DNA from: Liopterus haemorrhoidalis
Taxonomy: Eukaryota > Arthropoda > Insecta > Coleoptera > Dytiscidae
DNA: 64,000 nt
Assembly (NCBI GenBank): GCA_963971575.1
Contig: OZ020611.1
Location: 4,972,882-5,036,881 of the forward strand
Direction: 5' to 3'
Of this stretch, positions 10,849-63,675 are shown piece by piece. The position numbers and the translations under genes were made by a program. The first letter of the stretch is position 1; each line of letters opens with the position of its first letter. Below the pieces are notes generated by a model. It saw nothing but the letters and a program-made list of their open reading frames with translations. It was not told the DNA's origin and ran no database searches.

Positions 10849-12135
10849 CCAGGTCTACAAGTATGAAATGCGGATTTTTTTTTTTTTTTAAAACACATTT
10901 AACTCAAAAGAACAGTAAAAGTTTAATTATTCAAAGTATGCTCCATTAGAAGTTATACATTTTTCCCATCCTTCAGGCAATTTGTGAATACCTCGCCAGT
11001 AGAACTCTTTCCCTTACCCCGCAAACCATTCATCTACCCATTCTTTCACATTATTTTCACAAAAGTGCTGCTCGCCAAGTGCGTGACCCATCGATGCGAA
11101 CAAGTGGTAATGTGAAGGGGCCAAGTCTGGTGAGTAAGCGGCTGTGGTAGCACTTCCCACTTGAGTGCCTCCAATGTGTTGCAAACTGCTTTTGCCTTAT
11201 ACGATGAAACGTTATCGTGAAGAAAGATTACCTTGTGCTGTCTTCTTTCGTATTCTTGTCGTTTTATGAGCAGCGAATGGTTTAATTCGATCAGTTGTTG
11301 TTGGTAGCGTTGGGTATTAACTGTTTCGCCAGGTTTTAACAATTCATAATAGACCACACCCTTTTGGTCCAACCAAGTACAGAGCATTGTCTTTTTGCCA
11401 AAGCGATTCGGTCTTGCAGTTGATGTAGATGGTGAGCCTGGGTTCACCCATGATTTTTTGCGTTTGGCATTTTCAAAATAAGTCCATTTTTCATCGCCAG
11501 TAATGATACGATGCAAAAAACTCTTTCTTTTGTATCGTGCAAGCAAAATTTCACAAGTGTTTTTGCGTTTTTCCATCTGCCTCTCATTCAATGCATGTGG
11601 AACCCATCTGCCGACTTTCTAGATCTTACCCATCTCTCGTAGGCGATTGGAAACAGCTTGTTGACTAACGCCTAACTGCTCTGCTAGTTGTTTTTGTGAT
11701 TGACTATCGTCTTCCTGTAGCATTGTTTCCAATTTTGTATCTTCATATTTTTTTGGAGGTTTTCCATGTTCTTTGTCTGTAAGATCATAGTCACCACTTT
11801 TGAAACGCCGAAACCATCGTTCACACGTATCTTGCGATGGAGCATATTCACCATAAGCTTCTCGAAGCAGTCGGTATGATTCAGCAGCAGTTTTTTTCAA
11901 ATGAAAACAAAACAGTACATAGTACAGTCCGCGAATGCTCTTTATTTGGCACAAAATTTGACATTTTTAACACAGTAAAACAAAACTATATGATCACTTT
12001 TCAAATTATAACCTATACGCATTTGTCTCTTGATGATAACTTAACAAAACGCCATATGTGTTGAAACTTTGAACTATACACTCTGTTTGCGCGGCAAGTT
12101 TGAAAAAAATCCGCATTTAATACTTGTAGACCTGG
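10849..12135 (-). mobile_element. Full-length mariner element (1287 bp)
   Basis: Inverted termini CCAGGTCTACAAGTATGAAA and, on the right, TTAATACTTGTAGACCTGG are flanked by TA on both sides (10847-10848, 12136-12137). The length is that of a complete mariner. It contains one transposase frame on the minus strand with several lesions. Confidence 0.93.
10927..11964 (-). pseudogene. Mariner transposase, nearly full length, inactivated
   Basis: The frame begins MSNFVPNKEH at 11964 and ends AYFE-stop at 10927-10929, 345 residues, the usual mariner size. N-terminal helix-turn-helix parts (LKKTAAESYRLLREAYGE, QLAEQLGVSQQAVS) precede WVPH, the first-Asp region TGDEKW, a YYELLKPGETVN block, and the second Asp in FLHDN. 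Lesions seen: a frameshift near 11930, a TAG after REMGKI (11619-11621), loss of the usual residues after HDN, and a frameshift before the third Asp. Decayed copy; it cannot make transposase. Confidence 0.88.
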
Positions 12136-21700: not shown

Positions 21701-24700
21701 AGACTGTGTAAATTAAATTCCTTAAGATCCCTTAGTTTTTAAATGGGGTGAGTTTGAAGGGCTCGAATAAGGTGGTGTTCGCTTGTAAATAGAGGTTTTA
21801 AACGGCTATATCTCGCCAAATATTCACTGTACAGAAAATATATGTACAGGGAAATTTAAGTCATTAAAAAAGCTACAATTTAGTGCTCTATCATTTTTTT
21901 CGTATCTCCAGTAATTTCGGAGATATTTTGAAGAAAAGGGTGAAAAATACGAAATCGCAAAAAATGGTTTTTTCTTTAAACTCCATTTTTTCTAAAATTA
22001 GGCATTTTAAATTGGTCAAACTTCTTGGGTGTACTCAAAATACATATATGAAGAGAACCACAGAAGGGTGAGGATCAATTTTAATTAGGGGGGTAAATAG
22101 GGGTTGTTTTCACTGATTTTTTCGTATAAAAAAGTAGGTACCGACCTTATTTTGATCATAAGTCGCTTAATTTTTATACTAGAGACTTTTTTTTTTTTTT
22201 TTGTTTGAAAGGTCTAATCAAATACTTTAAAAAAGATTCAATGAGTTTTCTTCGAAAAATGCAAATTTTTCCTGTTATTTGACTTTGAATCTTTCAAATT
22301 ATGCATTTGGCGAAAAAAAGTTAACCATTAACATGCCGTATCTCGGTTCGTATTGGTCGTAGAAAAATAATAAAAAAAAGTATTTTGTTTGTTTTTTTAA
22401 AAGCTACAATTTTGCTTTCTACAGTTTTTTTGATAAAATGCATATTTTTCGAGTTATTCGCAAAAAACTTTTTAAAAACATCGATTTTTTCGTCGAAAAA
22501 CTGTTACACTCGTATTGTAGTTGAAAGTTACCATTATTTATAATAATTAATTCTTACCCACATGCTATAGATACCATTACTTCTATTTATTAATGCTTAC
22601 CAACTTTCATGTGCGGTGTATTTATATTATGACAAGGTTTTACCTTGGAACATTGAATATATAATTTTTCATTTCAGGCGATTGAGGACGATGAAGAAAA
22701 CGGTGAACAGTGACTTCCCTAAATGTAATTGTCAAATTAATTTAATGGGCTCTAAATACATGTAAACGACGTAAATTGTTTGGAAGGAATAACACGTACG
22801 CGCGTGTTGTCCAATCTATTAGAGATTTCACAAGTAAGCTATTGAACATTTATTTTAGACTTACCTAATAACGGCGGTAACCAGTTGACATTAGCCTCCG
22901 TGTGGGAATCTAAGAATATGAGTACATCTCCCGTGGCGACTTTGGCGCCCGCTATTCGAGCTAAGATCAGACCTTTTCTCTCTGGCAAATGTACAACTCG
23001 CACCTTTGTCATATTTACTCTTACGTATTCATCTAGTGGCTTTTTAGTAAAGTCTAAAACAAATCAACTCACTGTATATCACTTTCTGTAATATGTATGA
23101 GGGTAATTTCCAATTACCTTTTGTACTACAGTCGTCTACAAGGATGATCTCCTTGAGTAGAGAGGGAGGGGATCTATTTATGACACTATATGCTGTACGT
23201 AACAAGGTACTCCAGTGTTCGTTGTGGAAAGGAACTATAACGCTCACTGTTGGCAGCTTCTTTAAATATTTCTTCTCTTGACATCTAAAAAACAAAAAAA
23301 TAACATCAACATTCCATGTAATTCTTTTAAACAAAATAGGGGATACGCATAAAATTTATATTTTCTTAAAACTACATTTTTACTTGCCCGACCTTAATAT
23401 ATAAGGGGCAAGTATTGTAATCGCGAAAATTTTCGATGTCGAGATTTTGACTGATGACCACGTTTCATGGTCCAGAGAATCCAAAAAACCTATTTTCGAA
23501 GTGCCATCCGTATGTGTGTGTGTCTGTGTGTGTGTCTGTGTGTATACACGATAACTCAAAAACGATTTAACTTAAAGAGTTCGTTCTGGTACTAAAAAAT
23601 TCTCCTAATAATTGGGAAGAACCCTATTGTTTTTTATTAAAATCCGAAACCGGAACCGGAAGTTATTGAACTTAAAAATTTTAAAAAATTCGTAACTAGT
23701 AAACCAAGCCTTGAACAAAAATTTGTATAGGACATAATTTGATGTATTTTTGAAGATTTACCTAAATCTTCTATTAGATTAAAAAAAAAAAAAAAAATTA
23801 TGTATTTTTTTTTATTATTATTTTTTTTATGTGAGGGCAAGTCTAGCGGAGGTCTCCCTTCGCCACTGGTTTTGATATGTTAATGTTAGTTATGTCACCT
23901 AACAAAACAAAAATCACATTTTAATTAATATTACAGCTAAATTTTTTAATTAAAATATTGTAAATTTGAAATAAGCCGACCACAGCGGGAAGGTTGCCGA
24001 GTAAATACGACGGAGCATGACGTCAAACCCTAAACGGCCCAGACTACAACATACGTATTTAATAAATACAAATACATATGTATTTAATAAAATAATTATT
24101 TTTTTCAAAAATGCCATATTTTCCAAAAATTCCTCTCGTACGTTTCCGGCTCAGATCAATATACATTACTTATAATTTTTTCAGGTTTTTGGCAAAAGGG
24201 TGCGGGACAAGAACTTTTGCACATTTTTGGCTAAATTCGTGTTAAAAGAAACGAATTTCAACGACACAAAAAAATCGACATTTTTCGAAAAATTTATCTG
24301 AAATTCCTGTTGAACTATTTCGGTTCCCATCAATGTTCATTACGGAGATTTTTTTTTAGATTTTTAGATCAATCCCTTTGGGAGATAGGGTGGGAAATCC
24401 AATAAAAAAAATTGATTTTTAAAATAAAAAAATAAAAATTTGTTGATCCGCGCATTAAGAGGTTACATTTGGTATGCAAATCAAAATTTAAAAAAAAAAT
24501 ATTAATTTTTTTACTAAATATTTGTTTATATTTATTCCGCGCTGTATTTTTTTGAACTCTCTATAGTTTTGCTATATGTGGGTCAAAAAGTTGTACAAGT
24601 ATGCCAAATTTCAACTTTCTATGTTCAGCCGTTTGGCTACAATTTCTACCGTACAGACAGGCAGCACATGAGTGACGTTATAAAGGTTTTTTTGTGGTCA

Positions 24701-27189
24701 TACCTACAAAACCCTAAAAAGAATCAAAGCTTGTAGAAATTTCATATAATGTAAAATATAATCGTAACTTATATTTTTCTAATTGGAAATACCATCCTTT
24801 TTCATCACCAAAAAATACAGTATAAGACCCCTGCGGCAACATGTGGATTCGGAGCCGCATGCGGCTCTTTTAGAAAATTTTGTGGCTCTTTGAAAATTGG
24901 CTGGTTTTTATTTTAATATAATTTATTTTTTAATTTTCAACTTTCTGCCTGTACTATACAGGTTTTGTATTGTTCAGAATGTTTTACGGTGCAATTCACG
25001 CCCGGTAATACCCCAAGTTACTGTATATTCCTTTTTAGAAGAAGTTATTTGTTTCGAAAAAAAGTTATCTGTATATGTGAATGTTTTAAGTGCAGAAACA
25101 TTTTTAAATTTTATTAATTTACAAAAACATACGGACAATAACAACGTTATTAATGGAATTTTTTTTTTGCACAAACTATTGTTAACATGCAAGAAGCTTT
25201 TGGAGATAGATTTAAAGAGTTTAGAAAATATAAAGCTACACTAGCTTTTTTGACAAAACCAAATGAAGCAGATATGCAGCAATTACATTTATCACCATTC
25301 CCATTGATTATGTTGACTTTTAGAGAGCGCAAACAGATTTTAATAACCAGATTTTAATAAGAGAAGAATTAAAGGATTTTATTCTATTTTATTTTTATAA
25401 TAACACAACTAAAAATATATTTGAGATTACTACATAAATTCATTTTCCATAGCAACTTCATGTTTTCATAGGGTGCTTGATATATTAAATTGCATACTCA
25501 ACAGATTAATCAGGCTCAATTTGAACTTCAATTATTGCATTTGAAATCCAAAGATTTATGGAATAATATATTCTTAAAACTTAATTCTAAACTGGAAAGT
25601 TTAGAAAGAGAAAAGTGCATTTTATCTTCCCAGAATAAGTGGACCGATATTCACAATCTTCAAAATGTAGATACAGTTAGTTTCGAAGCTTGGAACAGAC
25701 TTCCAAAATCGTGCAATCATTTAAAAAATTAAGCTTTTGGTCTACTGACAATTTTCGGATCCACGTATTACTGTGCGCAGGTCTTTTCACATATGAAATT
25801 AATAAAGAGTCAGTTAAGAAGTTATCTTACTGACCTGAAACTAGAGTGCTGCCTTAAGCTAAAGATTACTGAATATTCACCAAATATTGAAGTCTTATCG
25901 AACACTATGCAGGAGCAATCGTCCCATTGTAATATACTGGCAAGTGCAATAGATACACTTTGTTCCAAACGGTTAGGCGGAACTAAGTAGGCATTTTGTT
26001 CTTTTAGGTTGTCACGAGAAGGGACCTGGCTTGGGTTATTTCATTTTTCACATTGGAATGTCAAAATTTAAAATTCCAACAATGAAACCATGGAAACGAA
26101 TGACATATGTCAAAATTAAATTATTTTTTTTTACATATTTTAATGACAAAAAAATAAATAAATGGGAAATTTGTATTAAGAATGACACAAAAAATTTAAA
26201 TATAAAGAAAATGACATTTTAAAATGATATTAACCTTAATCAAAAAATGTTTATTGTAAGTATGATTTACAAAGCTTAAACAAAACGGCCGAAAAGCACG
26301 ATTTAAACGATGAAAGTAATTAGATTGCAAAATCTAGTTCCGCTTAACCGTTTGGAACAGACTTTATCACAAGCTAAATGTATAAGTAAATATTAATTTA
26401 TTGTAATACTTGATTATTTTAAAATAAATAAACAATTTATAAGTTTTTTTATTAAATATAGCATATATTTTTTAGCGGCTCTTCCATGTTATTGCATTTC
26501 TTTTTCAATATAGATTTTGCTCTTTGTCACCGAAAGGTTGCCGACCAAAGGTACAAGCTATACCAAACCTTTAAGCGGAACTAAATAGAATTTTTATTTT
26601 AGTAAGTTGTCACGAGCTCACTTTTTAATAATTGAAGTGGACTTTTGCTAAACAAAATTATCAAAAGCCTCATTTAAACCTTAAAAGTTATTAGTCTTCA
26701 AAATCTAGCTTAGCTTAAACCAAAGAAACAGACTATATTTTTTCTACTTCTCAATGGTGTATAATTTAGTATATTTATTTTTATAAAAATTGATGTGAAG
26801 TGTGAATTTTCACACATTTCAGGGTTTTGCAGGTATTTAGTAAGTGAATGATGATTATTTTGGATGCGAAAACAAATTTTATATTAAAATATTTTTTTTG
26901 TTAATTTTAATTCGAACGCCTAATACCATTATTTAGGTTTCTAAATATGTGCAGTATTTTTTTTTTTTTATATAGCAAGGTTCATTAAGAATTTTAAAAT
27001 TGCGCCTATGGCTTCCATTGGTTGTTATAAGTTCCGCCCCTCTGATTTCGTGTACATTGAAACAGAATTAAATTATAATTTAAACAATTTCCACTGGCTA
27101 TTAAATTTACGCTTTTAAAAATTAAATGCAACATTTGCCAAAATATAATTACAATTTTGAAAAAATAATTTAAACAACATAGAAATTTA

Positions 27190-27244
<55 letters not shown>

Positions 27245-28757
27245 CTCCAGGGTTCGATCCCTATCGGATCGGGTTACATGGGTGAAAAGTCAGCGTCAAA
27301 TACCACTAGACCAGCACACACGTTAGAGTGTTGCTTGTTACAAAGCTATAACTTGTGTACATTATTAGCCAAAAATCACAAAAAATGCGTTTTTTTCCAA
27401 AAACCTAATCTGATCAAAAATTCCTGTTGAACTATTCCGGTTCACACCAATGTACATTACTTAAAATTTTTTCAGATTTTTAGTTTAAACCATCTGGGCT
27501 ACAGGGTGTGGGACAAAAAATTTTTTGCACAATTTTGGCAAAAATCGCTTCAAAATAATTTATTTTGCAAAAATAAAAATTTGATCGTTAATCCACGTAC
27601 CAAGGGCTTTCATTTGATACCCTACTCAGAATTATAAAAAAATATTTTTTTTTTTCGATGATCACATATTTGTTTATATTTTTAGGGGGATATGTTTTTT
27701 AGATGTTTTAGTATTTTTCCTATGTGCGGGTCAAAGAGTTGTATAAGCATGCCAAATTTCAACTCTCTAGGTTTAGCCGTTTGGCTACAATTTTTACCGA
27801 ACAGACAGACAGACAGAAGACAAAATGACGGTATAAGGGTTTTTTGGTCATACCTACAAAACCCTAAAAATGAAATAAGTTGACCAATCCTTTTATCCCT
27901 CTAAATTTTTGTGTTTTGATCCTATTTTTTTTTCTTCCTCAAAATTTGAAACCGGAACAAGTTAAAATCGGGACTGTCCCTGCCAAACCATAATATCTCA
28001 TCTTCTATAAATAAAACTTGGACACTGAATTAAAAGCAGTACTGGTAAGTTTAAAATTATGATTATAGAAAACTTTGCCACAAGTTCAAAATTGACATTT
28101 CAAGTAATTAAACAGCCACATCAGCTAATCAACTCAAGATAAACAAAATCGTTCTAATTAAAAAAAATAATATTTAATAAACCTTATTTCTATTTTAAGT
28201 ACAGAAATTTATTAAAGTAAAAAATTAATTTACGAACCCTTTATGTCTTATATCCGGAATAGCTCTTTCAACAGATATTAAATCACTGAGCGCAGCATTA
28301 AAACCGTTAACACTATATAATTTATCGTACTGATCACTTTCTTTTGCAGTGAGATGAGCTGGCACTCCGTGTTCTCCGATACCTTTAAAAAAAATAACGT
28401 TTTAATACATTTTCAAATTAAAATCAAATATACACAATTCATAAAAAAATTACCTTTCCGGCTCTTTTCTTTTATAATTAATGCATAATCATGCCAATCA
28501 ATTTTTTCATTATCACTAATTTCATTTTCTATATCCTGAAATTAAAAATAATGTAACGTAAAATTAATTTTTTTTTTTAAACGTACCTTTAAGAAATCCA
28601 TTCTAGGTAATGGCACTGGTTCTTTGCCAAAAGGCGACTGTTTTTCATACTCCCCATGTTCTAAATGTCTTATTATTTTAAAAAATACTATCGTAAAACC
28701 TATTGTAACTCCGGAGAGTATAGAAAATTTCAAAATACTTTTAGTACTTCGTCTCAT
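15530..28757 (-). CDS. GALNT10: Polypeptide N-acetylgalactosaminyltransferase, GALNT10 type, complete, 10 exons
   Basis: Transfers GalNAc from UDP-GalNAc to Ser/Thr, starting mucin-type O-glycans in the Golgi lumen. Exons (transcript order): 28757-28587, 28535-28454, 28382-28238, 23284-23118, 23053-22865, 21042-20865, 19478-19255, 18092-17866, 17588-17334, 15700-15530; 1809 nt, 602 residues, as expected for the family. Seen: short basic N-terminus (MRRSTK), one membrane segment (about 8-29), GT-A domain opening [11 protein letters not shown] (about 147), DSH metal motif (237-239), WGGEQ (340-344), [10 protein letters not shown] with the third metal His (about 368), and a ricin-type lectin domain (about 462-602) with [12 protein letters not shown] and TQKWRFEH. 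The [11 protein letters not shown] and WHKDIRP segments point to GALNT10 rather than GALNT1/5. The start is the first in-frame ATG; the upstream frame begins only with TTG. All junctions are GT-AG; intron 3 has a weak donor (GTTCGT). Symbol by homology only. Confidence 0.95.
15966..16002 (-). other. Hammerhead-like CTGAAGA/GAAA hairpin at the Penelope-like 3' end
   Basis: On the minus strand CTGAAGA is followed by one extra nucleotide, a 6-bp stem GGAAAC/GTTTCC with a 13-nt loop, then GAAA. The strands resemble hammerhead ribozyme core boxes, but the extra base and the unverified stems I and III argue against an active ribozyme. Similar motifs lie at 33475-33501 and 36876-36898. Confidence 0.35.
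15999..16742 (-). pseudogene. Penelope-like element: C-terminal GIY-YIG endonuclease region
   Basis: An uninterrupted 247-residue minus-strand frame lies in GALNT10 intron 9. It contains a cysteine-rich start of the nuclease ([17 protein letters not shown]), [10 protein letters not shown] and a downstream [12 protein letters not shown] segment, the GIY-YIG nuclease characteristic of Penelope-like retroelements. The N-terminal part (about 1-60) is the linker after the RT. The RT that should precede it on the same strand is absent; instead an RT fragment lies back-to-back on the plus strand from 16738. The intact frame suggests recent arrival or chance survival. As a partial copy it cannot be autonomous. 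Confidence 0.85.
16738..16920 (+). pseudogene. Penelope-like RT fragment, inverted relative to the GIY-YIG part
   Basis: Plus-strand frame reads [27 protein letters not shown]...[10 protein letters not shown], the N-terminal RT region of Penelope-like elements up to the FDV catalytic segment. Homology stops at about 16920. The opposite orientation to 15999-16742, with the switch at about 16740, shows an internal inversion or two abutting 5'-truncated copies. Confidence 0.75.
16965..17044 (+). other. Compact GC-rich nested hairpins after the RT fragment
   Basis: In AT-rich surroundings this 80-base block has a GTCGC/GCGAC stem with GAA loop (about 16979-16991), flanked by AAAAC/GTTTT beyond two G-A/A-G mismatches, and then a TAGGGG/CCCCTA outer stem enclosing a GCCC/GGGC hairpin (about 17005-17043). 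Function unknown; structured RNA of the retroelement is one possibility. Confidence 0.45.
17041..17280 (+). pseudogene. Tc1-like transposase C-terminal fragment
   Basis: Frames give [20 protein letters not shown] (second catalytic Asp), then KWPAQ-like RPDLN and [14 protein letters not shown], with stops and a frameshift between. The Glu of the usual NPIENLW is replaced (NTKKNIW). A dead scrap in intron 9 ending about 50 bases before the exon 9 donor. Confidence 0.75.
17334..17588 (-). CDS. GALNT10: GALNT10 exon 9 (lectin domain)
   Basis: Starts [13 protein letters not shown] after a GTTTTAG acceptor, ends QYWKYDV at donor GTAAGT. Codes most of the ricin-type lectin domain, including WHKDIRP and CHGMGGNQ. 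Phase 0 on both sides. Confidence 0.95.
17866..18092 (-). CDS. GALNT10: GALNT10 exon 8
   Basis: Codes [20 protein letters not shown], the end of the catalytic domain, and the linker to the lectin domain ([12 protein letters not shown]). The first codon is split with exon 7. Confidence 0.95.
18215..18320. repeat. Relative of the TGACGTCA TIR element (one end)
   Basis: ATGAGATGACGTCACAGTTGAAAAACTTGATTTGTTG here resembles 13185-13225. Only one end is seen, just upstream of another TIR element. Confidence 0.5.
18399..19131. mobile_element. Non-coding TIR element (~730 bp) in GALNT10 intron 7
   Basis: Left GGATCTATTCTGTATCTTT and right AAGATACAGAATAGACCC are inverted matches, and the inner words GTTAAAAAGTAAC/GTTAATTTTTAAC extend the similarity to about 35 bp. 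No open frame. No clean target-site duplication. Confidence 0.6.
19255..19478 (-). CDS. GALNT10: GALNT10 exon 7 (Gal/GalNAc-transferase motif)
   Basis: Codes [23 protein letters not shown] and [10 protein letters not shown], the substrate-binding block and third metal ligand. Split codons at both ends join to exons 6 and 8. Confidence 0.96.
19664..20510 (+). repeat. Family B repeat, copy 2, with an intact first exon
   Basis: Begins at ATAGGGGATACGCATAAAA and shares its whole length, inverted, with 5941-6690; its first ~220 bases recur at 23337-24050. It contains the ATG exon 19974-20104 and, further on, CTGTGTAGGCTGTACG repeats. It looks like the 5' part of a multi-copy gene carried by a mobile element. 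No terminal repeats were recognised. Confidence 0.65.
19974..20104 (+). CDS. Putative first exon of a multi-copy YqaJ/SWIM-type gene
   Basis: ATG frame [20 protein letters not shown] followed by MLMEYMKNN and AEEIRGVKT, ending at a consensus donor GTAAGT (20105). The pattern resembles the N-terminus of arthropod proteins with SWIM and YqaJ-like nuclease domains (F-V, LP-id-FM, E-RG-K). No second exon was found in the window, so this is an isolated, probably non-functional fragment in GALNT10 intron 6, in antisense orientation to that gene. Confidence 0.5.
20865..21042 (-). CDS. GALNT10: GALNT10 exon 6
   Basis: Codes [32 protein letters not shown] and [12 protein letters not shown]. Flanked by AG at 21043-21044 and donor GTAAG. 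Confidence 0.94.
21094..22761. repeat. ~1.6-kb block flanked by ~37-bp direct repeats in GALNT10 intron 5
   Basis: AATGTAATTGTCCAAATTAA...GGGCTCTAAATAC occurs at about 21094-21131 and again at 22724-22760 in the same direction. Between them is low-complexity DNA with recurring phrases (AGCTACAATTT, TATCTCG, AAAAACGATTTT). Near the right side TTTTTCATTTCAG precedes a short frame [15 protein letters not shown] (22678-22713) that looks like a terminal exon, but nothing supports it further. Confidence 0.45.
22865..23053 (-). CDS. GALNT10: GALNT10 exon 5 (DxH motif)
   Basis: Codes [28 protein letters not shown] and [17 protein letters not shown], including the Asp-Ser-His manganese/UDP site. Confidence 0.96.
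23118..23284 (-). CDS. GALNT10: GALNT10 exon 4 (start of GT-A fold)
   Basis: Codes [20 protein letters not shown] and [12 protein letters not shown], the first strand of the nucleotide-binding fold and the DD nucleotide-contact site. Confidence 0.96.
23337..24050 (+). repeat. Family B repeat, copy 3 (5' part), split by an insertion
   Basis: ATAGGGGATACGCATAAAA to AACTACAT (23337-23370) resumes at TTGATATGTTAATG (23873) through CTAAACGGCCCAGA (about 24045). It stops before the exon seen in copy 2. Confidence 0.7.
23371..23872 (+). repeat. Inserted ~500-bp repeat with 5' hairpin and TG/TCTG tract
   Basis: Starts TTTTTACTTGCCC, folding with GGGCAAGT 17 bases on, includes a (TG)n/TCTG tract (23513-23545), and ends AGGGCAAGTC...CGCCACTGG. 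It disrupts family B copy 3. The layout (T-run, hairpin, TGTC microsatellite) parallels the sense start of family A, though the sequences differ. Confidence 0.55.
24090..24722 (-). repeat. Family A repeat, diverged copy
   Basis: Carries family A phrases (AAAATTCCTCTCGTACG, GGTCAAAAAGTTGTACAAG, CAGCCGTTTGGCTACAA, CATACCTACAAAACCC) with heavy divergence. No tRNA-like module. Confidence 0.6.
25170..25930 (+). pseudogene. hAT transposase, C-terminal remnant
   Basis: Plus-strand frames show [17 protein letters not shown], then a helical stretch [17 protein letters not shown], and finally [20 protein letters not shown] followed by [16 protein letters not shown], the hAT dimerisation (hATC) segment. 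Several frameshifts and stops separate the pieces. A vertebrate-style ZBED5/SCAND3-like transposase is the closest type. Confidence 0.75.
25956..26364. mobile_element. MITE family M1 copy in the hAT element
   Basis: Ends CACTTTGTTCCAAACGG...CCGTTTGGAACAGACTT, TA on both sides (25954-25955, 26365-26366). 409 bp, non-coding. Confidence 0.88.
26557..26735. repeat. Decayed, internally deleted MITE M1 copy
   Basis: CCAAACCTTTAAGCGGAACT at the left and AAATCTAGCTTAGCTTAAAC at the right correspond to the M1 ends; the middle is shortened. Confidence 0.6.
26788..27878 (-). repeat. Family A composite repeat, copy 4
   Basis: Full-length relative of 3794-4924 inside GALNT10 intron 3, from GATGTGAAGTGTGAATTTTC to CATACCTACAAAACCC. 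An (AT)n tract (27193-27237) separates the A-rich part from the tRNA-like module (27238-27316). A TCTG microsatellite lies at 27800-27817. Confidence 0.75.
27238..27316 (-). ncRNA. tRNA-like module inside family A copy 4
   Basis: On the minus strand CTGGTCTAGTGGTATTTGA (A-box-like) is followed about 50 nt on by GGGATCGAACCCTGG (B box matching GWTCRANNC). Flanks match copy 1 closely but the module itself is very different from that copy. Confidence 0.55.
28238..28382 (-). CDS. GALNT10: GALNT10 exon 3
   Basis: Codes [37 protein letters not shown] and IRHKG. The donor is GTTCGT, a weak site, starting the longest intron (4953 bp). Confidence 0.93.
28454..28535 (-). CDS. GALNT10: GALNT10 exon 2
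   Basis: Codes [20 protein letters not shown] and KEKSRK, part of the stem region. Confidence 0.92.
28587..28757 (-). CDS. GALNT10: GALNT10 exon 1 (start, signal anchor)
   Basis: ATG at 28755-28757; [11 protein letters not shown] then a hydrophobic run to about residue 29, then a charged stem ending LPRMDFLK at donor GTACGT. The upstream in-frame TTG (28794-28796) is not a likely start. Confidence 0.92.
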
Positions 28758-32387: not shown

Positions 32388-32959
32388 GTTTAAACCATCT
32401 GGGCTACAGGGTGTGGGACAAAATTTTTTTTGCACAATTTTGGCAAAAATCGCTTCGAAATAATTTATTTTGCAAAAATAAAATTTTGATCGTTAATCCA
32501 CATACTAAGGACTTTCATTGATACCCTCTCAGAATTTAAAAAAAATATATATTTTTTTAAATTCTGCAGATCCATTTTATTAATATATTCTCAAATTAAT
32601 GTATCGTTGTTAATTCTATGACCGCCACTGTATTTGTTTATATTTTTAGGGGGATATGTTTTTTAGATGTTTTAGTATTTTTCCTATGTGCGGGTCAAAG
32701 AGTTGTATAAGCATGCCAAATTTCAACTCTCTAGATTTAACCGTTTGGCTACAATTTTAACCGAACAGACAGACAGACAGACAGTCAGATAAACAAATAT
32801 ACAGACAGACGACAAAATGACGGTATAAGGGTTTTTTGGTCATACCTACAAAACCCTAAAAATACTCCTAAACAAACTCCGCGGTCATCGACCCATGCTA
32901 TTCTACCCTAATCATGTCTCTGCAGGTTCCTTCACTATTCTCATCTCTTCTATCTAACA

Positions 32960-33677: not shown

Positions 33678-34979
33678 CAAGGTGTCTCAAAAGAAATTTT
33701 ATATTTAGTGGATCGATTAAAAAAAAAGTAAGCCGTATATAGAAAAAATGTTTATTAATTATTAAAATACACTTTTTGGGGATTTATTTCTTAAAAATAA
33801 TATCGTCTAAATGTAGACCCTCGCGTACTCATTTAATCGAACAGTAAAATTACTTATGACGTCTCGGCAGGTGGACTCAGGGATGGCTGCCATTTCGTGA
33901 CGGATATTTTCTTTCAAATGCGCCAGTGAAGTAGGTTTATTGGGGTAAACTTTAGATTTAAGATAACCCTATAGGAAAAAGTCCATAGGGGTTAAATCTG
34001 GACTGCGTGGAGGCCAATTTATGTCACCTCTCCGGGAGATCAATTTGCCTGAGAAAATTTCACGAACACGTGGCAGAGACATATTGGACGTGTGTGAAGT
34101 TGCTCCGTCCTGTTGGAACCATGTTCTTTGGTTATAGCCAGGAAAGTTTTGCAGTTCAAGTACCAAGAAGTTGTCTAACATCTCCACATAACGCTCTGAA
34201 TTCACTGTAACTGCACGCCCCTTTCGTCTTCAAAAAAGTAAGGGCCGATAATTCCTCGCGCCGACATCGCAGCCCATACGGTCACTTTAGGCGAATGTAG
34301 GGGTTTCTGATGTTTGCGTTTCGGATTCGTTGCACTCCAGTAGCGGCAGTTCTGCTTATTTACGTGGCCATTAAGATGAAAATGAGCTTCATCCGAAAAC
34401 AAAATGTTGGTAAACGTTGAAAATCGCTCAATCACCTGATTTACGAAATTAAGCCTCTGTCTGGCATCTTGGGGCTTTAATTCTTGCACCAATTGAATTT
34501 TGTAGGGGTGCAGCTTTAGGTCTTTGTGCATACTGCGATGTAATGATGATCTATGCACATTTAAAGCACTTGCGCGCTTCCGAATTGAAAGGTTCGGGTC
34601 GTCACGAACAGACTGATTAACATTCTCCACGTTTTCTACCGTTCTTGATGACCTAGGTCGCCCGGATTTTGATTTATTCAGCGTTGTATTAGTCTCTTCA
34701 AACTTTTTAACCCAATGTCGAATGAGAGGAATGCTTGGCGCATCATTTAAGTGTCGAAAACCTCGAATACTGCCGAATTTTCTACGCGCTACAGTTCCCG
34801 AATCACCGTTTTTGTAAAACTCTCGCACGCATAACGCGCGGTCTGCTCCCGAGAAACGCTCCATAGCGACTGAATTTCCAAGAGCCAGGCTACCGATTGA
34901 CATAACCCCCGCGCCCCTCGGATACGTTGCGTTCACGCAGTAAGCTAAATAAATATAAAATTTCTTTTGAGACACCTTG
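33678..34979 (-). mobile_element. DD41D Tc1/mariner element, copy 1
   Basis: Ends CAAGGTGTCTCAAAAGAAAT...ATTTCTTTTGAGACACCTTG. TA precedes the left end; the right is followed by AT rather than TA, so the duplication has changed or ATAATA flanks reflect simple sequence. 1302 bp. Nearly identical to 42071-43384 in the other orientation. Confidence 0.88.
33784..34903 (-). pseudogene. DD41D transposase, broken copy
   Basis: Starts at MSIGSLALGN (34903) or the nearby MERFSGADRALC. Shows an HTH-like part (SIRKRASALNVHRSSLHR), FSDEAHF (first Asp), WFQQDGATSHT (second Asp) and PRSPDLTPMDFF with the third Asp 41 residues later, hence DD41D. Lesions against copy 2: a frameshift at DERG (about 34205), a stop after MDFFL, and a small deletion shifting the last residues. 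Confidence 0.85.
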
Positions 34980-35096
34980 ATAATAATGATATAATGAAGT
35001 TTTATGTCGAAATACTGTTGAAATTTATAAAAAACAAAAAATTGGTAGCAAAGTACAAAAATTTGGTTGGCAAATTCTTTTATTGACTTTTCTTGA

Positions 35097-35357
35097 TATC
35101 GCTGGTGACCTGGCAATACCTCCTATCTACAATTTTTAGCGAAAATAAGCTCTTAGTTTGCGTTGTAACCCACGTATTATTGCACAATTTGTGATAATAC
35201 TTCTTAAACAAGAAAAATATTTAAGGTCTAAACTTCGTACAAAGCATTACCTTTTATCTTAAACTACGGAAAAACGGCTGATATAAAGCAGTTTTTTACC
35301 TCTCCTTTAAATTTATATTTATGCAGATAGAAGGTATTGCCAGGTCACCCACGATAT
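35097..35357. mobile_element. Short TIR MITE (~260 bp)
   Basis: GGTGACCTGGCAATACCT (35103) and AGGTATTGCCAGGTCACC (35333) are inverted; similarity extends outward to GATATCG/CGATATG. No frame. Confidence 0.65.
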
Positions 35358-40785: not shown

Positions 40786-42070
40786 TATAGCGATTTCAGT
40801 TACGATAAATAAATACATTCAATAATTTCATAGTACTGTGATTACTGTTATTGTGACGCTAACAGCATTCTAGCTCCGATCCCCACCAATTTATCACTAC
40901 TGCCTACGCACCGCTGGCCCTTTACAAGCCAACATTTACACTTTCCTTGACGCTAGGCTATAAGCAGCGCGACGTAGACTTATTCAAAGGAAACTTGTAA
41001 ATATTTATGAAGCAACAGCATTCAATGTTCAAAATATATTTTAAAAAAAGCATTTTCACACCACAGTTACTATGTTAAATGCATTTTGAGTTCAAAAAAA
41101 AGATTATTATTTTTTTATTATTTTCAAGTAAGAGCTGCAGCGCGTACTCAGGAGCCGCCACTGGGGCCTACGAATGCAATATTAATTATTTATTTTTTAT
41201 TTATTCATGATAAGTATTTACAGGTCGGAACCCAACTAATACAATAAATATATAACAATAAGTGTAAATTAACAAATATAAAAAGAAGATGGTATTAATT
41301 TACAAAAAAAGAAGAAAAAAAATAATACTAATATTAAAAATATAAATACAAATATCAAAATATGAATTGGGCGTGGAGAGTCGAGACAAGCTTTTTAATT
41401 GACCCCAAAATCACATCAAATATATCTATGGAACTCTGACTCTTCCCGCATAGCGAATTGAACAGATGGCATATCCTGTCAATTGATGCATTATCGCCAT
41501 ATATAGTCCTATGCTGAGGGATCTGGAACGTGCTATTACTCCTTGTGGCTCTACTGGGCACCCTAATTGGAATTTTGCTCAGGAGTTCAGGCGAAGGTAT
41601 TGTGCCGTTTAATATTTTGTGCAGGAAACATACCCCGCTTACATCTCGTCTCAAACAAAGTGACTGTATGCCTACCAACGTCCTTCTTTGTTCAGCTGAC
41701 AACATGGTGCGGTCAATATGCAATATTGTAAAGCAAGTATTTTACAAATTTGCTCTGCACATTCTCTAATCTTTTAACGCACGTTGATTGGTGTGGATTC
41801 CACACCACGCTCGCATATTCTAAATGACTTCTAACAAATGCAAAGTACATCGTCTTTATAGCATTTATGTTTGTGAAATTAGCACTATTTCGCTTTATAA
41901 AGCCTAACATCTTCAATGATTTTTTACATATAGTGTCTATATGTTTTTCGAATGAAACGCTACTTGTAAATATAACGCAAAGATCTTTTACTTCACTCAC
42001 TACTTTAAGTCTTGTGTCATTAATTGAGTAGGGAAATGATGATGCATTCATTGTTTTGGAAAAACATATA

Positions 42071-43384
42071 CAAGGTGTCTCAAAAGAAATTTTATATTTA
42101 TTTAGCTTACTGCGTGAACGCAACGTATCCAAGGGGCGCGGGGGTTATGTCAATTGGTAGCCTGGCTCTTGGGAATTTAGTCGCTATGGAGCGTTTCTCG
42201 GGAGCAGACCGCGCGTTATGCGTGCGAGAGTTTTACAAAAACGGTGATTCGGCGACTGTAGCGCGTAGAAAATTCTGCAGTATTCGAGGTTTTCGCCACT
42301 TAAATGATGCGCCAAGCATTCCTCTCTTTCGACATTGGGTTAAAAAGTTTGAAGAGGTACAACGGTACAACGCTGGATAAATCAAAATCCGGGCGACCTA
42401 GGTCATCAAGAACGGTAGAAAACGTGGATAATGTTAATCAGTCTGTTCGTGACGACCCGAACCTTTCAATTCGGAAGCGCGCAAGTGCTTTAAATGTGCA
42501 TAGATCATCATTACATCGCATTATGCACAAAGACCTAAAGCTGCACCCCTACAAAATTCAATTGGTGCAAGAATTAAAGCCCCAAGATGCCAGTCAAAAG
42601 CTTAATTTCGTAAATCAGGTGATTGAGCGATTTTCAACGTTTACCAACATTTTGTTTTCGGACGAAGCTCATTTTCATCTTAATGGCCACGTAAATAAGC
42701 AGAACTGCCGCTACTGGAGTGCAACGAATCCGAAACGCAAACATCAGAAACCCCTACATTCGCCTAAAGTGACCGTATGGGCTGCGATGTGGGCGCGAGG
42801 AATTATCGGCCCTTACTTTTTTGAAGACGAAAGGGGGCGTGGAGTTACAGTGAATTCAGAGCGTTATGTGGAGATGTTAGACAACTTCTTGGTACCTGAA
42901 CTGCAAAACTTTCCTGGCTATAACCAAAGAACATGGTTCCAACAGGACGGAGCAACTTCACACACGTCCAATATGTCTCTGCCACGTGTTCGTGAAATTT
43001 TCTCAGGCAAATTGATCTCCCGGAGAGGTGACATAAATTGGCCTCCACGCAGTCCAGATTTAACCCCTATGGACTTTTTCCTATGGGGTTATCTTAAATC
43101 TAAAGTTTACGCCAATAAACCGACTTCACTGGCGCATTTGAAAGAAAATATCCGTCACGAAATGGCAGCCATCCCTGAGTCCACCTGCCGAGACGTCATA
43201 AGTAATTTTACTGTTCGATTAAATGAGTGCCGAGAACGCGAGGGTCTACATTTAGACGATATTATTTTTAAGAAATAAATCCCCAAAAAGTGTATTTTAA
43301 TAATTAATAAACATTTTTTCTATATACGGCTTACTTTTTTTTTAATCGATCCACTAAATATAAAATTTCTTTTGAGACACCTTG
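42071..43384 (+). mobile_element. DD41D Tc1/mariner element, copy 2, inserted in the Jockey-like ORF
   Basis: Ends CAAGGTGTCTCAAAAGAAAT...ATTTCTTTTGAGACACCTTG with TA on both sides (42069-42070, 43385-43386). 1314 bp. Confidence 0.92.
42147..43278 (+). pseudogene. DD41D transposase, one frameshift from intact
   Basis: From MSIGSLALGN to IIFKK-stop. A single disruption near 42355 (the copy reads KKFEEVQRYN where copy 1 reads KKFEETNTTLNKS; an extra duplicated AACGGTAC-like piece) shifts the frame; after it, 324 residues are open. First Asp in FSDEAHFHLNGH, second in WFQQDGATSHT, third in LTPMDFFLWGYLKSKVY; 41 residues between second and third, as in rosa/Visitor-type elements. Confidence 0.88.
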
Positions 43385-44479: not shown

Positions 44480-44722
44480 TCAACTAATTCAATTAATATT
44501 TTTAAAATAAATATTTCTTTTTTTTATTAAATACATAATTATTTATATTTATTTCGGGTTGTGATTTTTTGAACTCTCAGTATTTTTCCTATATGTGGGT
44601 TAAAGAGTTGTATAAACATTCTATGTTAAGTCGTCTAGCCACAATTTCTACCGTACAGACAGACGCAAGAGACGTTGTAAGGGTTTTGTTAGTGGTCATA
44701 CCTATAAGACCTTAAAAAATGG
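44480..44722 (-). repeat. Family A 5'-part fragment
   Basis: TATGTGGGTTAAAGAGTTGTATAA, TACCGTACAGACAGAC and CATACCTATAAGACC match the hairpin end of family A. Confidence 0.6.
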
Positions 44723-44754
44723 GGTGCTACATAAGAAGCCTGCCCAGAAAATTA

Positions 44755-46142
44755 CACTGGTCAACACAATTTTTGCTGACTTACATCTAAGACTTGTTTC
44801 TTACTAATTTGGTGCTGCTGAACTCAAATATCACGTCAGTTTTTGCGTATCACATCAGATTTTTGCTCTACAACAAATACATATTTTCGGCCAAATAATC
44901 CTTCTATCGTTTAATTTTAGACGTCGATAATGAAATTGGTACAAATTTGGCGAACAATAAGGACTAAATAATTAGAAAATATTCTTAAAATTTTATTTAT
45001 AGGGAAAGAAAGAAAATGAGAACAGTATTAACTACATTTTAATGCATTAAAGTGTTAAAATAAAAATACAAAATAATTTAAGGATTAAATGGTCGTTTGT
45101 AAGATCTTCTGGAGTGCACCATTCCCGATAAGTCTCTTTTAATACTCAAACAGTAGTCAGCCATCATGTGAGTATCCCACCTTCCTTGATAACGTCTCTC
45201 CATCTCTTTTAAATCCTGATGGAAACGTACACCCTGTTCATCACTAACATCTCCAAGAATGACAGGAAATTTGTCAAGATGACATTAAAAAATAAAGTTT
45301 CACGCTTATGTTGCACCCCAGATGATGATAATTTACAAATTTTCAACGACCTCCACATAGTTTTGGGCTTTTTTATTCCCAAGAAAATTTTTGATGAGCG
45401 CCACGAAAGACTGCTATGCATTCTTCTCCATATCATCCATATGTACAGTGAAATGTGGATCATTCACTCATTTTCTAATTTGTGGTCCGTCAAAAATGCC
45501 AGCTTCTAGCTTCTCATTACTGAGCTTTTGAAATGTTTCAAATATATATATGAAACAGTCACCATCTTTGTTCAACGGTTTTACAAACTGCTTCATTAGA
45601 CCCAGTTTAACATGAAGAGGGGGGAAAATGATTTTTGTTCGCTCCACCAAAGGTTCGTGTATTGAGAAGTGACATTACCGTTGGCGGAGCTGTAATTCAT
45701 GGTAAAATGGCTGAATTGTCTAGTATTCAGCTGTCAATATATAACAGGGAAAAAGTTAATTTAAGCACAGTACATTTTTATTTTATGAAAATGTATCTAT
45801 GGACGTTCTAACAAAAAATCAACACCAGAACATATGTAATAATTTCAAACAGTACTACAGTCGCGTAGTACAATATTTCACCACCAGACTGCGTATCCGA
45901 GCGTGTCAGTTCTCAATTATGTTTGGGTCTCCAACATTTAAATCTATTCTCACCGGCCAATTTTTCCTCTCCAGTCCAATGCTTATCTCTCGCTCTGCTG
46001 TCCCTGTCAAAATACGATAGAACAAAAATTTGACGTGATAGGCAGAAACTGTTAACATTTTTGAAATCAGCACCCCAAAATTAGTTAAAAACAAGTATCA
46101 GATCTAAGTCAGCAAAAAAAAGTTTAAATTTGTTGACCAGTG
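44755..46142. mobile_element. TIR element (1388 bp) carrying the PPLH..LGLMK pseudogene
   Basis: Left CACTGGTCAACACAATTT and right (inverted) CACTGGTCAACAAATTT begin imperfect inverted repeats of about 70 bp (both go on to TTTTTGCTGACTTA and AGGTGCTGA-like words). TTA flanks both sides (44752-44754, 46143-46145). The 3-bp duplication and CACTGG start are compatible with CACTA/EnSpm-like or another 3-bp-TSD superfamily. The only coding content is the minus-strand pseudogene 45078-45660. Confidence 0.75.
45078..45660 (-). pseudogene. C-terminal part of an uncharacterised multi-copy arthropod protein (PPLH..LGLMK type)
   Basis: Minus-strand frames read IFPPLHVKLGLMKQFVKPL, LEAGIFDGPQIRK, then across stops NFLGNKK, VILGDVSDEQGVRFHQDL, MERRYQGRWDTHMMADYC and end KRPFNP-stop at 45078. 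I recognise the pattern from large families of uncharacterised arthropod proteins; its biochemical role is unknown. At least four stops or frameshifts occur. Conserved His, Asp and Glu (PPLH, SDEQG.RFHQD) could form a metal site, which is inference. It lies inside a TIR element. Confidence 0.7.
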
Positions 46143-46145
46143 TTA

Positions 46146-48055: not shown

Positions 48056-49090
48056 AACGGGTCTGCTAGTAAAAGTTATATTGTCCGACGAGATTGTTTG
48101 TATGACCCGGCAAAGTTGATTGTGCATTCCGCCGAAGGTATACGCCTTGCTGTGGTTGGTTGTGCGGGCTGCAGTGTTCTTTTTTGTACCCCACGGAGAC
48201 TGTGCGTCACACAAAGGTTGTTGTATTGCCCACTGAAGCTGTTTGTCCATCCCGTCGGGTTTGTTGCGTGTTCCATGGCAATTATGCGTCCCACGGAAGT
48301 TGATTTTGCGACTAGCATGTTGTTTTTCCTGCCGAAATTGTGCGTCTCACAAAAGTTGTTGTATGGCCCATCGAAGCTGTTTGTTTGTCCAGTATGGTTT
48401 GTGAGTTCCATGGCAATTATGCGTCCCAATGAGGTTGCTTTGCGACTCGCAGTGGTTTTTTTTCCCGCCGAAATTGCGCGTCCCACAAAGTTGCTATATG
48501 GCCCACCGATACTGTTCGTCTGTCTCGCCAGGGTTGTCGTGCGTTCCACGGCAATTGTGCGTTCACCAAGGTTGATTTCGTGACCCGTAAAAGTTGATTT
48601 TTTAGCAGAGATTGTGCGTCCCACAAAAGTTGTTGTATGGCCCACCGAAATTGTTAGTCCGTCCTGCCGGGGTTATTGTGCATTCCACCGCAGTTGTGCG
48701 TCCACCGATTTTGATTATGTGACCCGTAAAAGTTGATTTTTTAGCTGAGTTTGTGCGTCCCACAGAGGTTGTTGTATGGCCCACCGAAATTGTCTGTTCG
48801 TTCCGCCAAAGTTGTGCGTTTCAAAGAGGTTGATTGTAGTTGTTTTTCCAATAGGGATTAAGCAGCCCACAAAATTTGTTGTATGACCCACCGAAGTTGT
48901 TTGTCCATCCCGCTGAGGCTGTTATAAGTTCCACCGCAATAGTACGTTCCACCGAAGTTTTACGACGAAATTGTATGGCCTACCGAAGTTGTGTGTGTGG
49001 CCATCCCAGGTTGTTTAATGGCCCGCCGAAATTATGCGTTCCAAAAAGGTTATTGTGTTGTGCTCGCTTATTTATACGAGCCATCCCGAT
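48056..49090. repeat. Minisatellite with higher-order organisation
   Basis: About 21-bp subunits (GTTGT..GTCCGTCCCGCCGAA type) are grouped into higher-order units: the marker GTTGTTGTATGGCCCACCGAA recurs near 48207, 48353, 48489, 48628, 48767 and 48878, mostly 136-146 bp apart. The block is GC-richer than its surroundings and stays open on both strands (189 and 161 codons), a by-product of the repeat rather than genes. Confidence 0.85.
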
Positions 49091-55019: not shown

Positions 55020-56674
55020 CAGTGCTGTGCAAAACATTTGCAATTGAACCTATATGTTAAAATATTGTTGCCTTTTTTTTAATTAAATTAAATCAGAATT
55101 TTTGTTTATTATTATTTTTATTATTAATAGTTATTGGCTAGTTTACCACAAAAACAAAAATAATTAAAATTAATTGTTTAGGCAAAAAAGAAAAAAAATA
55201 TATAACAATTAGGTATAATTTGGCTGAGCAAAACAATTGCAACTCATGTCATTATTCGTTTACTTACGTGAATTGTCGTGCATTTTCGTACGAATTCGGA
55301 ATATTTGCGGGATTTATCGAGTTTTTTTATTAGTTGTTTTTTTAAAAGTTTATTTAAAATATGAAGGTAGTATTTAAAATAATTTAAAAAATGGGAGGTG
55401 TTAAGTATAATTCTGAAATAAAATCAAAAATTCTACTTGAATACAAGAACGGCATGACATAGAAAGAAATTTCTGAGAAGTATAAGATCCATAAATCTAC
55501 AATTTACAGCGTGTGAAGAGTGGAAGAGTTGAACCTTACCATAAGGGAGGACGACCTGTACAATAACGCCACGAGAGGACCGTGAAATACTAAAATTAAT
55601 TTAAAAAAATCGTCAAATATTTTCCAAAGATATCAAAGACAGCCTAGGACTAGATTTAAATATATCAAATATAAGGCGACGGGCGATAGACAATAATCTA
55701 CGCAGCTACAAAATAGCAAAAAACACTGTTTCAAATAAAAGTCGGTTAGTTTGCAAAAACCGGAGTCAACACAAATGGGGAACAGTATTATTTTCAGATG
55801 AAACAAAATTCAATTTGGAAGTGATGGCAAACCGAATGTCAGAAGGCCTAGAAATGAAAGATTTAATCCGAGATATACAAAAGGGACAGTTAAATTTGGA
55901 GGTGGAAACGTTATGGCCTGGGGATGCTTCTCGGCACAAGGAATAGGTCCACTAAGACGAATTTATGGCAACATGAATGCTTTGGATTATAGAGATATTT
56001 TGCAAAATACAATGCTTCCGTACGCAGACTGGAATATGCCACTTGTTTGGAGGTATCAGCATGATAACGATCCAACGCATACGGCCAGGATCGTCAAAGA
56101 TCGAATCGAAGAGCAAAATATTGATGTTATTAAGTGGCCGGCACAGTTCCTAGACTTCAACCCCATCGAAAATCTTTGGGAGATTGTCAAACGCCGAATA
56201 GGCAATCAGAGATTCAAATACCCAGACGATTAGTTTGAGGAAGCAAAAACGCAATGGGGGGTCATTCCAGTTACCATAATTAATAATTTAATTCAATCAA
56301 TGTGCCGCGCCGATGTGCCTTAGTCAATAAACAGAAAGGTTTCCCTATAAAATATTAATTATTTAATATGAAATTTATTTAATATGTATGCAGGTTGCAA
56401 ACGTTTTGCACATGCTAATTATTAATAATTTTAGTTAGTTAAAATTTTTGGCGCACATCAACAAAGGCTATTTGCGCCTTATTAATAATTTTCTATTTTT
56501 CTATTGTTCTTATATAAAATATAGTTTATATCTATTATTATCTATGTATTTTATTTGCGAATAATTAGTAATAATAAAAATAATAATAAATAAAATTTCT
56601 GATCGAATTTAATTTAAAAAAGGCAATAATATTCAAACATATATGTTCAGTTGCAAATGTGTTGCACAGCACTG
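55020..56674 (+). mobile_element. Tc1-like element (1655 bp)
   Basis: Ends CAGTGCTGTGCAAAACATTT...GTGTTGCACAGCACTG with TA on both sides (55018-55019, 56675-56676). Second, internal copies of the terminal motif (GCAAAACAATTGCAAC at 55229; GCAAACGTTTTGCACA at 56396) suggest an inner repeat, as in Tc1 elements with IR/DR-type ends. Confidence 0.92.
55391..56323 (+). pseudogene. Tc1 DD34E transposase, inactivated
   Basis: Starts MGGVKYNSEIKSKILLEY with helix-turn-helix EISEKYKIHKSTIYSV. LFSDETKFNL holds the first Asp, YQHDNDPTHTA the second, NPIENLWEIV the Glu, with 34 residues between second Asp and Glu. Stops (in NGMT-stop and after YSV) and frameshifts near 55530 and 55820 break the frame; the last 107 residues from MAWGCFSAQG are open to YPDD-stop. 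Confidence 0.88.
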
Positions 56675-62725: not shown

Positions 62726-63675
62726 TGAACGATATTTTTAAAATAATTTATCATCTGTTAATCTAATTCGAATGCCTAATCACATTACTGCACATATTTA
62801 GGTTTCTAAATATGTGCAGTATTTTTTTTATATAGCAAGGTTCATTAAGATTTTGGCTTCCATTGGTTGTTTTAAGTCATATGCTCCGCCCAGCTGATTT
62901 TATATACATTGAAACATAGAATTAAATTATAATTCCAACATTTCCCACTGGTTATTAAATTTACTCTTTTAAAAATTAAATGCAACATTTGCCAAAATAT
63001 AACTAAAATTTTGACAAAATAATTTAAACAAAATAAAAAAATGAAAAAAAAAAAAAAACAAAAAATAAAATTGTCTCCAGAGCAGAAGCGAATCCTAGTT
63101 TGCAGCTTAGGAATCGAGAAGGCTAACCATTAGACTATGAACGCTTAGCGGTTTACTATGTTGTGTAACGTATTAAATATTTTACATCGTCAACCAAAAC
63201 ATACAAAAAATGCGTTATTTTCCGAAAACATAATCTGATCAAAAATTCCTGTTGTACTATTCCTGTTCACACCAATGTTCATTAATTAGAATTTTTTCAG
63301 ATTTTTAGATTACCCCCTTTGGCTTACCGGGAGTGGGACAAAAAATTTGTTGCACATTTTTGGCAAAAATCGCGTTAAAATAATTTATTTTGCAAAAAAA
63401 AATTTGATCGTTAATCCCCGTACTAAGGGCTTTCATTTGATACCTTCACAGCATTTTAAAAAAATGTATTTTTTTTGATGAGCCCATATTTGTTTATATT
63501 TTTAGGGTGATATGTTTTTTAGATATTTTAGTATTTTTCCTTTGTGTGGGTCAAAGAGTTGTATAAGCATACCAAATTTCAACTCTTTAGGTTTAGCCGT
63601 TTGGCTACACCAAACAGACAGACGACAAAATGACGGTATGAGTTTTTTGATCATACCTACAAAACCCTAAAAATG
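62726..63675 (-). repeat. Family A composite repeat, copy 6, in CycA intron
   Basis: From ATTTTTAAAATAATTTATCA to CATACCTACAAAACCC. Carries a tRNA-like module at 63075-63150. Lacks the outermost 3' palindrome found in copies 1 and 4. Confidence 0.75.
63075..63150 (-). ncRNA. tRNA-like module inside family A copy 6
   Basis: On the minus strand AGTCTAATGGTTAGCCTTCT (A-box-like) and AGGATTCGCTTCTGC (weak B box). Diverged from the modules at 4296 and 27238 although flanks agree. Confidence 0.5.

Follow-up and report, generated by a model that had tools for sequence, protein, structure and literature searches.

A window of 64,000 nucleotides from the beetle Liopterus haemorrhoidalis (Dytiscidae; contig OZ020611.1, positions 4,972,882 to 5,036,881, forward strand) contained a 1388-bp element that is very probably a dead, internally deleted cut-and-paste DNA transposon of the Chapaev3 type (CACTA-Mirage-Chapaev, CMC), an assignment based on published descriptions of that type. 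The broken PPLH protein that it encloses looks like the tail of the transposon's own transposase, whose predicted fold resembles RAG1, by which human antibody genes are rearranged. Judged from its sequence, the window copy is without both aspartates assigned as catalytic and cannot make active transposase. The kind of transposon is already known and little studied, and the element adds an abundant family to it.

Structure of the window copy

The 12-mer CACTGGTCAACA stood at both ends of the element (44755-44766, plus strand; 46131-46142, minus strand), its sole matches in the window at one mismatch or fewer. Aligned with gaps, the two arms matched over about 116 and 125 bp with a score of 111, compared with 30 for the best of 200 shuffled pairs; the ungapped alignment covered 101 nucleotides at 79% identity. 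An earlier note on this DNA, made from the sequence alone, had described inverted repeats of about 70 bp, TTA duplications, and a broken protein with PPLHVKLGLMK, DVSDEQG and RFHQD blocks. The repeats were present and longer than described, TTA stood on both sides, and all three blocks were found in one minus-strand frame at 45078-45674, interrupted by six internal stops (two TGA, one TAG and three TAA).

Relative to the 2551-bp majority sequence of the long copies described below, positions 1-137 and 1555-2551 were kept (Table 1). The deleted part included the N-terminal part of the protein and both aspartates assigned as catalytic, the codon of the second having been located in the sequence. 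Among the C(2)C, LH and H(4)H motifs, the LH region alone survived cleanly, and the DEQG region of the C-terminal remnant was the location of the last acidic residue. The later insertion within the coding remnant is possibly another small transposon. Near-inverted TTGAGAA..TTCTCAA stood at its ends, and similar sequence was present in one other locus (L028).

Table 1. Coordinates of the element and its parts in the window.
Feature	Positions	Strand	Remark
Whole element, 1388 bp	44755..46142	- (transposase sense)	Non-autonomous deletion derivative
TTA target-site duplication	44752..44754		A outside
TTA target-site duplication	46143..46145		T outside
Terminal inverted repeat, 3' side of the gene for the transposase	44755..44870	+	Begins CACTGGTCAACACAA
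Terminal inverted repeat, 5' side of the gene for the transposase	46018..46142	-	Begins CACTGGTCAACAAATTT
Kept 5' end	46006..46142	-	Positions 1-137 of the 2551-bp long-copy majority sequence
Internal-deletion junction	46004..46006		Long-form stretch of about 1.4 kb (137 to 1555) deleted
Transposase remnant just past the C(2)C motif	45916..46004	-	Frame broken, since tblastn matches come as separate pieces
Later insertion within the coding remnant, about 252 bp	45664..45915		Absent from the majority of long copies
C-terminal transposase remnant with in-frame stops	45078..45663	-	LH motif, helical insertion domain, DEQG region, C-terminus

The left flank of the element (44655-44718) was the end of another repeat, which terminated near GGTCATACCTACAAAACCCTAAAAA and was found at five further places of the window (4861-4922, 24653-24720, 27809-27870, 32801-32862 and 63614-63673).

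Ends, insertion sites and protein copies across the genome

The genome surveyed (1.02 Gb, 91 contigs) contained 2269 occurrences of the 12-mer (1136 + 1133), compared with 78 (37 + 41) for a reversed control, and TTA was immediately 5' of it in 808 occurrences versus 2 in the control. Facing ends within 3 kb were collected from the first 100 listed places, all on contig C1, which gave 28 pairs including the window copy. A transposase remnant was detected by tblastn in every one of them, comprising part of the catalytic core in 27 and, in the other (L074), the N-terminal part alone at 43% identity. Conversely, the protein search of the genome matched 150 of 150 scored candidates (of 6635), and the top 29 loci other than the window possessed both ends in 24 cases, one end in 5 and none in 0. 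The protein had been claimed as multi-copy from family knowledge, and its copies had been expected to share the CACTGGTCAACA inverted repeats; the first held in this genome and the second in most of these loci, and termini occurring mainly without the protein, the pattern named earlier as contradicting the proposal, were not observed among the 28 pairs. Twenty-three short copies had a mean identity of 94%.

The end pairs also pointed to an insertion rule. Their 3-bp flanks were identical in 17 of 28 pairs, a number reached or exceeded in 78 of 20000 random re-pairings of the flanks (mean 10.4 identical), with TWA on both sides in 22 pairs; in 25 pairs an A bordered the left flank on its outer side, and in 25 a T did so on the right.

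Tail-bearing protein copies were concentrated near contig ends: 91 of 115 were within 10 Mb of an end, a zone representing 28% of those contigs' sequence, and on contig C1 alone 19 of 25 copies fell within a zone representing 8%. These figures cover 115 of the 150 listed places, the other 35 being on contigs not included in the count.

Long copies and related lineages

Seven long copies with CACTGGTCAACA ends and TWA target sites measured 2381-2926 bp and showed 95.6-98.3% identity to their own majority sequence. They encoded a Cys-rich N-terminal part and, downstream of it, a core of 453 residues, the majority frame being broken between the two.

A search with the N-terminal half, from which the top 30 loci were kept (150 scored of 2498 candidates), recovered 19 close loci and 11 that belonged to a different, second lineage, about 55-60% identical to the query. 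Four of these 11 (L055, at 345-2769; L057; L060; L062) were elements of about 2.4 kb with CACAGCCCAACA ends, identical TWA flanks in two of the four, and a majority length of 2431 bp; such ends were not found in the other seven by the scan, which required CAC..GTG and not CACAGCCCAACA itself. A third lineage, about 50% identical, was represented by L070 (516-2858, about 51%), whose ends CACTGGTCAACAAA and TACTGGTCAGCAAA resembled the CACTGGTCAACA family and were flanked by TTA on both sides.

Protein family and predicted fold

With the window fragment as query, 1028 of 1037 database candidates matched at E<=0.001, and with a longer query, the majority translation of the second lineage, 2882 of 5144 did so. 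Each search listed 120 matches (240 in all), among which Tachypleus, Clavelina, Helobdella, Helicoverpa, Tribolium, Ranitomeya, Pyrocoelia, Callosobruchus, Rhineura, Hydra, Phyllobates, Schistocerca and Onthophagus were named. The presence of Hydra, Clavelina, Helobdella, Rhineura and Phyllobates does not fit the earlier description of the protein as an arthropod one. The names shown for the 240 listed relatives were of the 'uncharacterized', 'hypothetical' or 'unnamed' type, none saying transposase, and no entry had a precomputed Pfam domain. Most of the 120 relatives listed for the longer query measured 540-600 amino acids (aa), about 560 aa being typical.

The relatives had a conserved, Cys-rich N-terminus, with weak zf-AD matches in 17 of 33 members (best E 0.0029); RAG1_imp_bd was below the cutoff (E 0.08; in the 33-member scan 2 of 33, best E 0.14). 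A lone Pfam match to SQS_PSY (E 0.00067, among the 33 members) was taken as chance. Across 50 relatives, C337-C340, L385-H386 and H494-H499 were conserved, corresponding to C(2)C, LH and H(4)H, and D264, D318 and E513 were invariant, matching the DDE triad of an RNase H-like core; the triad was assigned by motif order and fold and not by experiment. The predicted fold was RAG1/Transib-like over residues 175-559 of a full-length relative, the RAG1 match having been obtained with VIA-align applied to Foldseek's own candidates. Sequence searches of the PDB gave nothing useful for one relative and no match for a 59-sequence profile, no relative was confirmed in the viral contigs searched, and among the titles listed by a literature search using protein motifs and the 12-mer, none concerned this element.

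If the protein were a captured or accessory gene whose ends are moved by another transposase, the loss of the catalytic aspartates from the window copy and the retention of the tail alone in most derivatives would be accommodated, and the long copies do carry antisense open frames overlapping the gene (176 aa in the majority sequence, where it is the one other frame of at least 100 aa, and up to 212 aa in single copies). This is nevertheless very unlikely, given the protein in 28 of 28 end pairs, its transposase-type predicted fold, and the size of the only other sense frame above 60 aa in the majority sequence (71 aa).

Classification

The element is assigned to the Chapaev3 type because all of the testable published marks were found except the Chapa domain, an N-terminal zinc-finger domain shared with RAG1, which is hinted at only. 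As described in PMC4079192, Chapaev3, which includes Merrow, Garfield and Conan, has 5'-CAC/GTG-3' ends, TWA duplications between A and T, and a transposase with C(2)C, LH and H(4)H motifs that is mostly encoded by one exon. The elements described there (Garfield_BM, Merrow_PM, Merrow_LC) are 2,289-2,455 bp long and encode proteins of 556-562 aa (Merrow, 2,451 bp, 78+484 aa; Garfield, 2,289 bp, 556 aa), and internally deleted derivatives exist. The present family resembles them in ends, insertion site, motifs, element size (~2.3-2.5 kb), protein size, internally deleted derivatives and occurrence across distant animals; it differs in that the derivatives sampled are many distinct deletions and not one homogeneous family of miniature inverted-repeat transposable elements (MITEs). 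The likeness is drawn from descriptions, as distinct from a comparison of terminal sequences and proteins.

Several of these marks are common to a wider group. According to PMC12730594, C(2)C and H(3-4)H are found in EnSpm, Mirage and Chapaev (CMC), Transib and RAG1, and fungal EnSpm elements have 5'-CAC..GTG-3' ends with 3-bp duplications; PMC4411706 unites Transib, RAG1, Chapaev and Chapaev3 as a single superfamily and assigns the Chapa domain to Chapaev3. CACTA and Chapaev3 are not separable by CAC ends, a short duplication and C(2)C/H(3-4)H, and the likeness to CACTA/EnSpm and Mirage in these respects, compared by description, would also suit a CACTA/EnSpm element in the narrow sense. Such an element is unlikely, as the A-TWA-T site, the majority lengths of about 2.4-2.5 kb and the relatives of about 560 aa match Chapaev3 as described in PMC4079192.

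With Transib and RAG1, the family shared the predicted fold, the DDE triad, C(2)C, H(4)H and CAC-starting ends. Recombination signal sequences and Transib ends both start with CAC. Identity in the structural alignments was about 9-16%, and the aligned RAG1 range began at about residue 460, after the nonamer-binding domain. Of the marks of Transib, the core fold agreed, whereas the duplication here is a 3-bp TWA and that of Transib is 5 bp. P element and hAT (Hermes) gave a weaker fold match and have other ends; both make 8-bp duplications, in contrast to the 3 bp found here. A PIF/Harbinger element would explain the TWA duplications (TTA/TAA sites) and the inverted repeats, and is extremely unlikely in view of the RAG1/Transib-like predicted fold, the C(2)C, LH and H(4)H residues, the CAC ends, and the absence of any Harbinger match at E<=1 from Pfam scans of 6 relatives and from the families listed for 33.

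The earlier note had proposed that the protein is the transposase or an accessory protein of a poorly described DNA transposon superfamily, CACTA-like or new, which would explain its copy number. The transposase role in a CACTA-like transposon, and with it the explanation of the copy number, is borne out by the 28 of 28 end pairs, the 24 of 29 loci and the RAG1/Transib-like predicted fold; an accessory role does not suit relatives that carry a DDE domain. 'Poorly described' was apt, Chapaev3 being rarely mentioned in the literature searched, and this, together with the absence of precomputed Pfam domains and of transposase names from the 240 listed relatives, could also speak for an undescribed superfamily of its own within the RAG1/Transib/CMC clade, with marks common by descent only. 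That is quite improbable, and the proposal of a new superfamily is not upheld, since every testable published Chapaev3 mark was found in the family except the Chapa domain, which is hinted at only.

Assignment to Chapaev3 has to be weighed against a number of observations. The Chapa domain is hinted at by sub-cutoff matches only, Pfam scans of the window pieces and relatives gave no match above the shown cutoff and no consistent family, Foldseek by itself returned nothing at E<=0.001 from PDB or BFVD, and the comparison with Chapaev3 and CACTA was one of published descriptions. On the genomic side, 44 of the 100 listed ends were without an exact partner within 3 kb, target-site duplications were non-identical in 11 of 28 end pairs, and a search for the empty site of the window copy found its own two flanks only. 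The top 30 N-terminal-half loci had both ends in 11 cases, one in 8 and none in 11; even the closest 19 had both in 11, one in 6 and none in 2, so that 8 of 19 were short of at least one end. Four of the five fetched third-lineage loci had no recognisable ends, and no intact long reading frame was seen among the copies examined in a non-exhaustive search.

The analysis links a protein family thousands strong (2882 at E<=0.001) in distant animals to a transposase of predicted RAG1/Transib fold with defined ends, so that such uncharacterized genes can be annotated as transposons or masked accordingly, and adds an abundant family close to RAG1 ancestry.

Internal deletions and the retained tail

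Mapping to the long form at both ends identified 26 of the 28 end pairs as internal deletions; they retain 61-398 bp on the 5' side and 442-1654 bp on the 3' side. In most sampled pairs, a middle piece of 0.7-1.8 kb was lost, mostly 1.2-1.8 kb. The tail is so common because the derivatives keep both ends and the 3' part of the gene. A single founder MITE was ruled out, the junctions differing between copies.

Among all loci in hand, 25 of the 32 distinct clean junctions had overlaps of 1-10 bp, which are consistent with microhomology joining after interrupted gap repair; short overlaps also occur by chance. Under the proposed mechanism, the transposase would bind the ends and cut beside 5'-CAC, perhaps via hairpins as in RAG1 and Transib, with insertion at A-TWA-T sites. 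Derivatives would form when repair of the donor gap halts early and joins at microhomology, and would then be mobilised in trans.

Private changes had a ratio of nonsynonymous (N) to synonymous (S) changes relative to neutral of 1.88 in the end-pair copies (26 of 26) and 1.18 in the protein loci (29 of 29, a set biased to open frames). The corresponding values were 1.59 and 0.93 for all distinct changes, and 0.46 (3 N, 2 S) and 0.76 (5 N, 2 S) for changes in at least three copies, which were too few for a judgement. As private changes show no sign of purifying selection, the kept tail is probably a passenger, and a repressor or domesticated function was not supported.

Deletion size classes

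Clean junctions were obtained in 47 copies (49 locus entries) from 102 loci and the window, giving the 32 distinct junctions. Twenty-two of these fell within four size classes, named after looking at the data: 1222-1244 bp (9), 1398-1412 bp (8), 1582-1592 bp (3) and 1740-1751 bp (2), separated by steps of roughly 160-180 bp; the other ten were outside. Within one class, the breakpoints slid by about 100 bp or more, and nine copies of 1289-1330 bp, checked by eye, had eight different junctions. Pairs of junctions with equal size (within 8 bp) numbered 36, compared with 9.7 ± 3.2 on re-paired breakpoints, and this number was reached in 0 of 5000 trials. A hand-made set of 31 junctions gave 35 pairs compared with 10.1, 12 of the 31 coming from loci selected because their match to the protein was long, a choice that restricts the range of observable breakpoints. 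The best period of deletion size was 176-181 bp, a value that rests on about four classes; in raw element lengths, periodicity was weak (best 193 bp, P 0.036). Examples of the classes, at about 1235, 1405, 1590 and 1745 bp, were L018, L032, L025, L038, L026, L017, L031, L015, L019 and others.

These figures tentatively suggest, as a possibility that we regard as doubtful, that internal deletions are size-quantised, their formation or later survival depending on DNA length in register, with nucleosome-repeat spacing between the joined sites or a preferred end-to-end distance of the transpososome as examples of a cause. More modestly, junctions may migrate at constant size when the copying strand switches between end-aligned long and deleted copies. 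Direct repeats were rejected as the cause of equal deletion sizes, identity at those offsets being within about 2-3 standard deviations of background, and no clear diagnostic substitutions for one founder per class were found among 36 informative columns. The size classes raise a testable question of how non-autonomous transposons form or get selected.

Other features of the window

Two similar long reading frames, at 34202-35122 (minus strand) and 42304-43278 (plus strand), presumably represent mariner-type transposase. Further frames at 11046-11618 (minus), 41713-42144 (minus) and 55802-56233 (plus) were taken to be mariner/Tc1 transposase and reverse-transcriptase fragments. A tandem array at 48196-48815 comprised about 4.5 copies of a 139-bp unit, with overlapping open frames on both strands.
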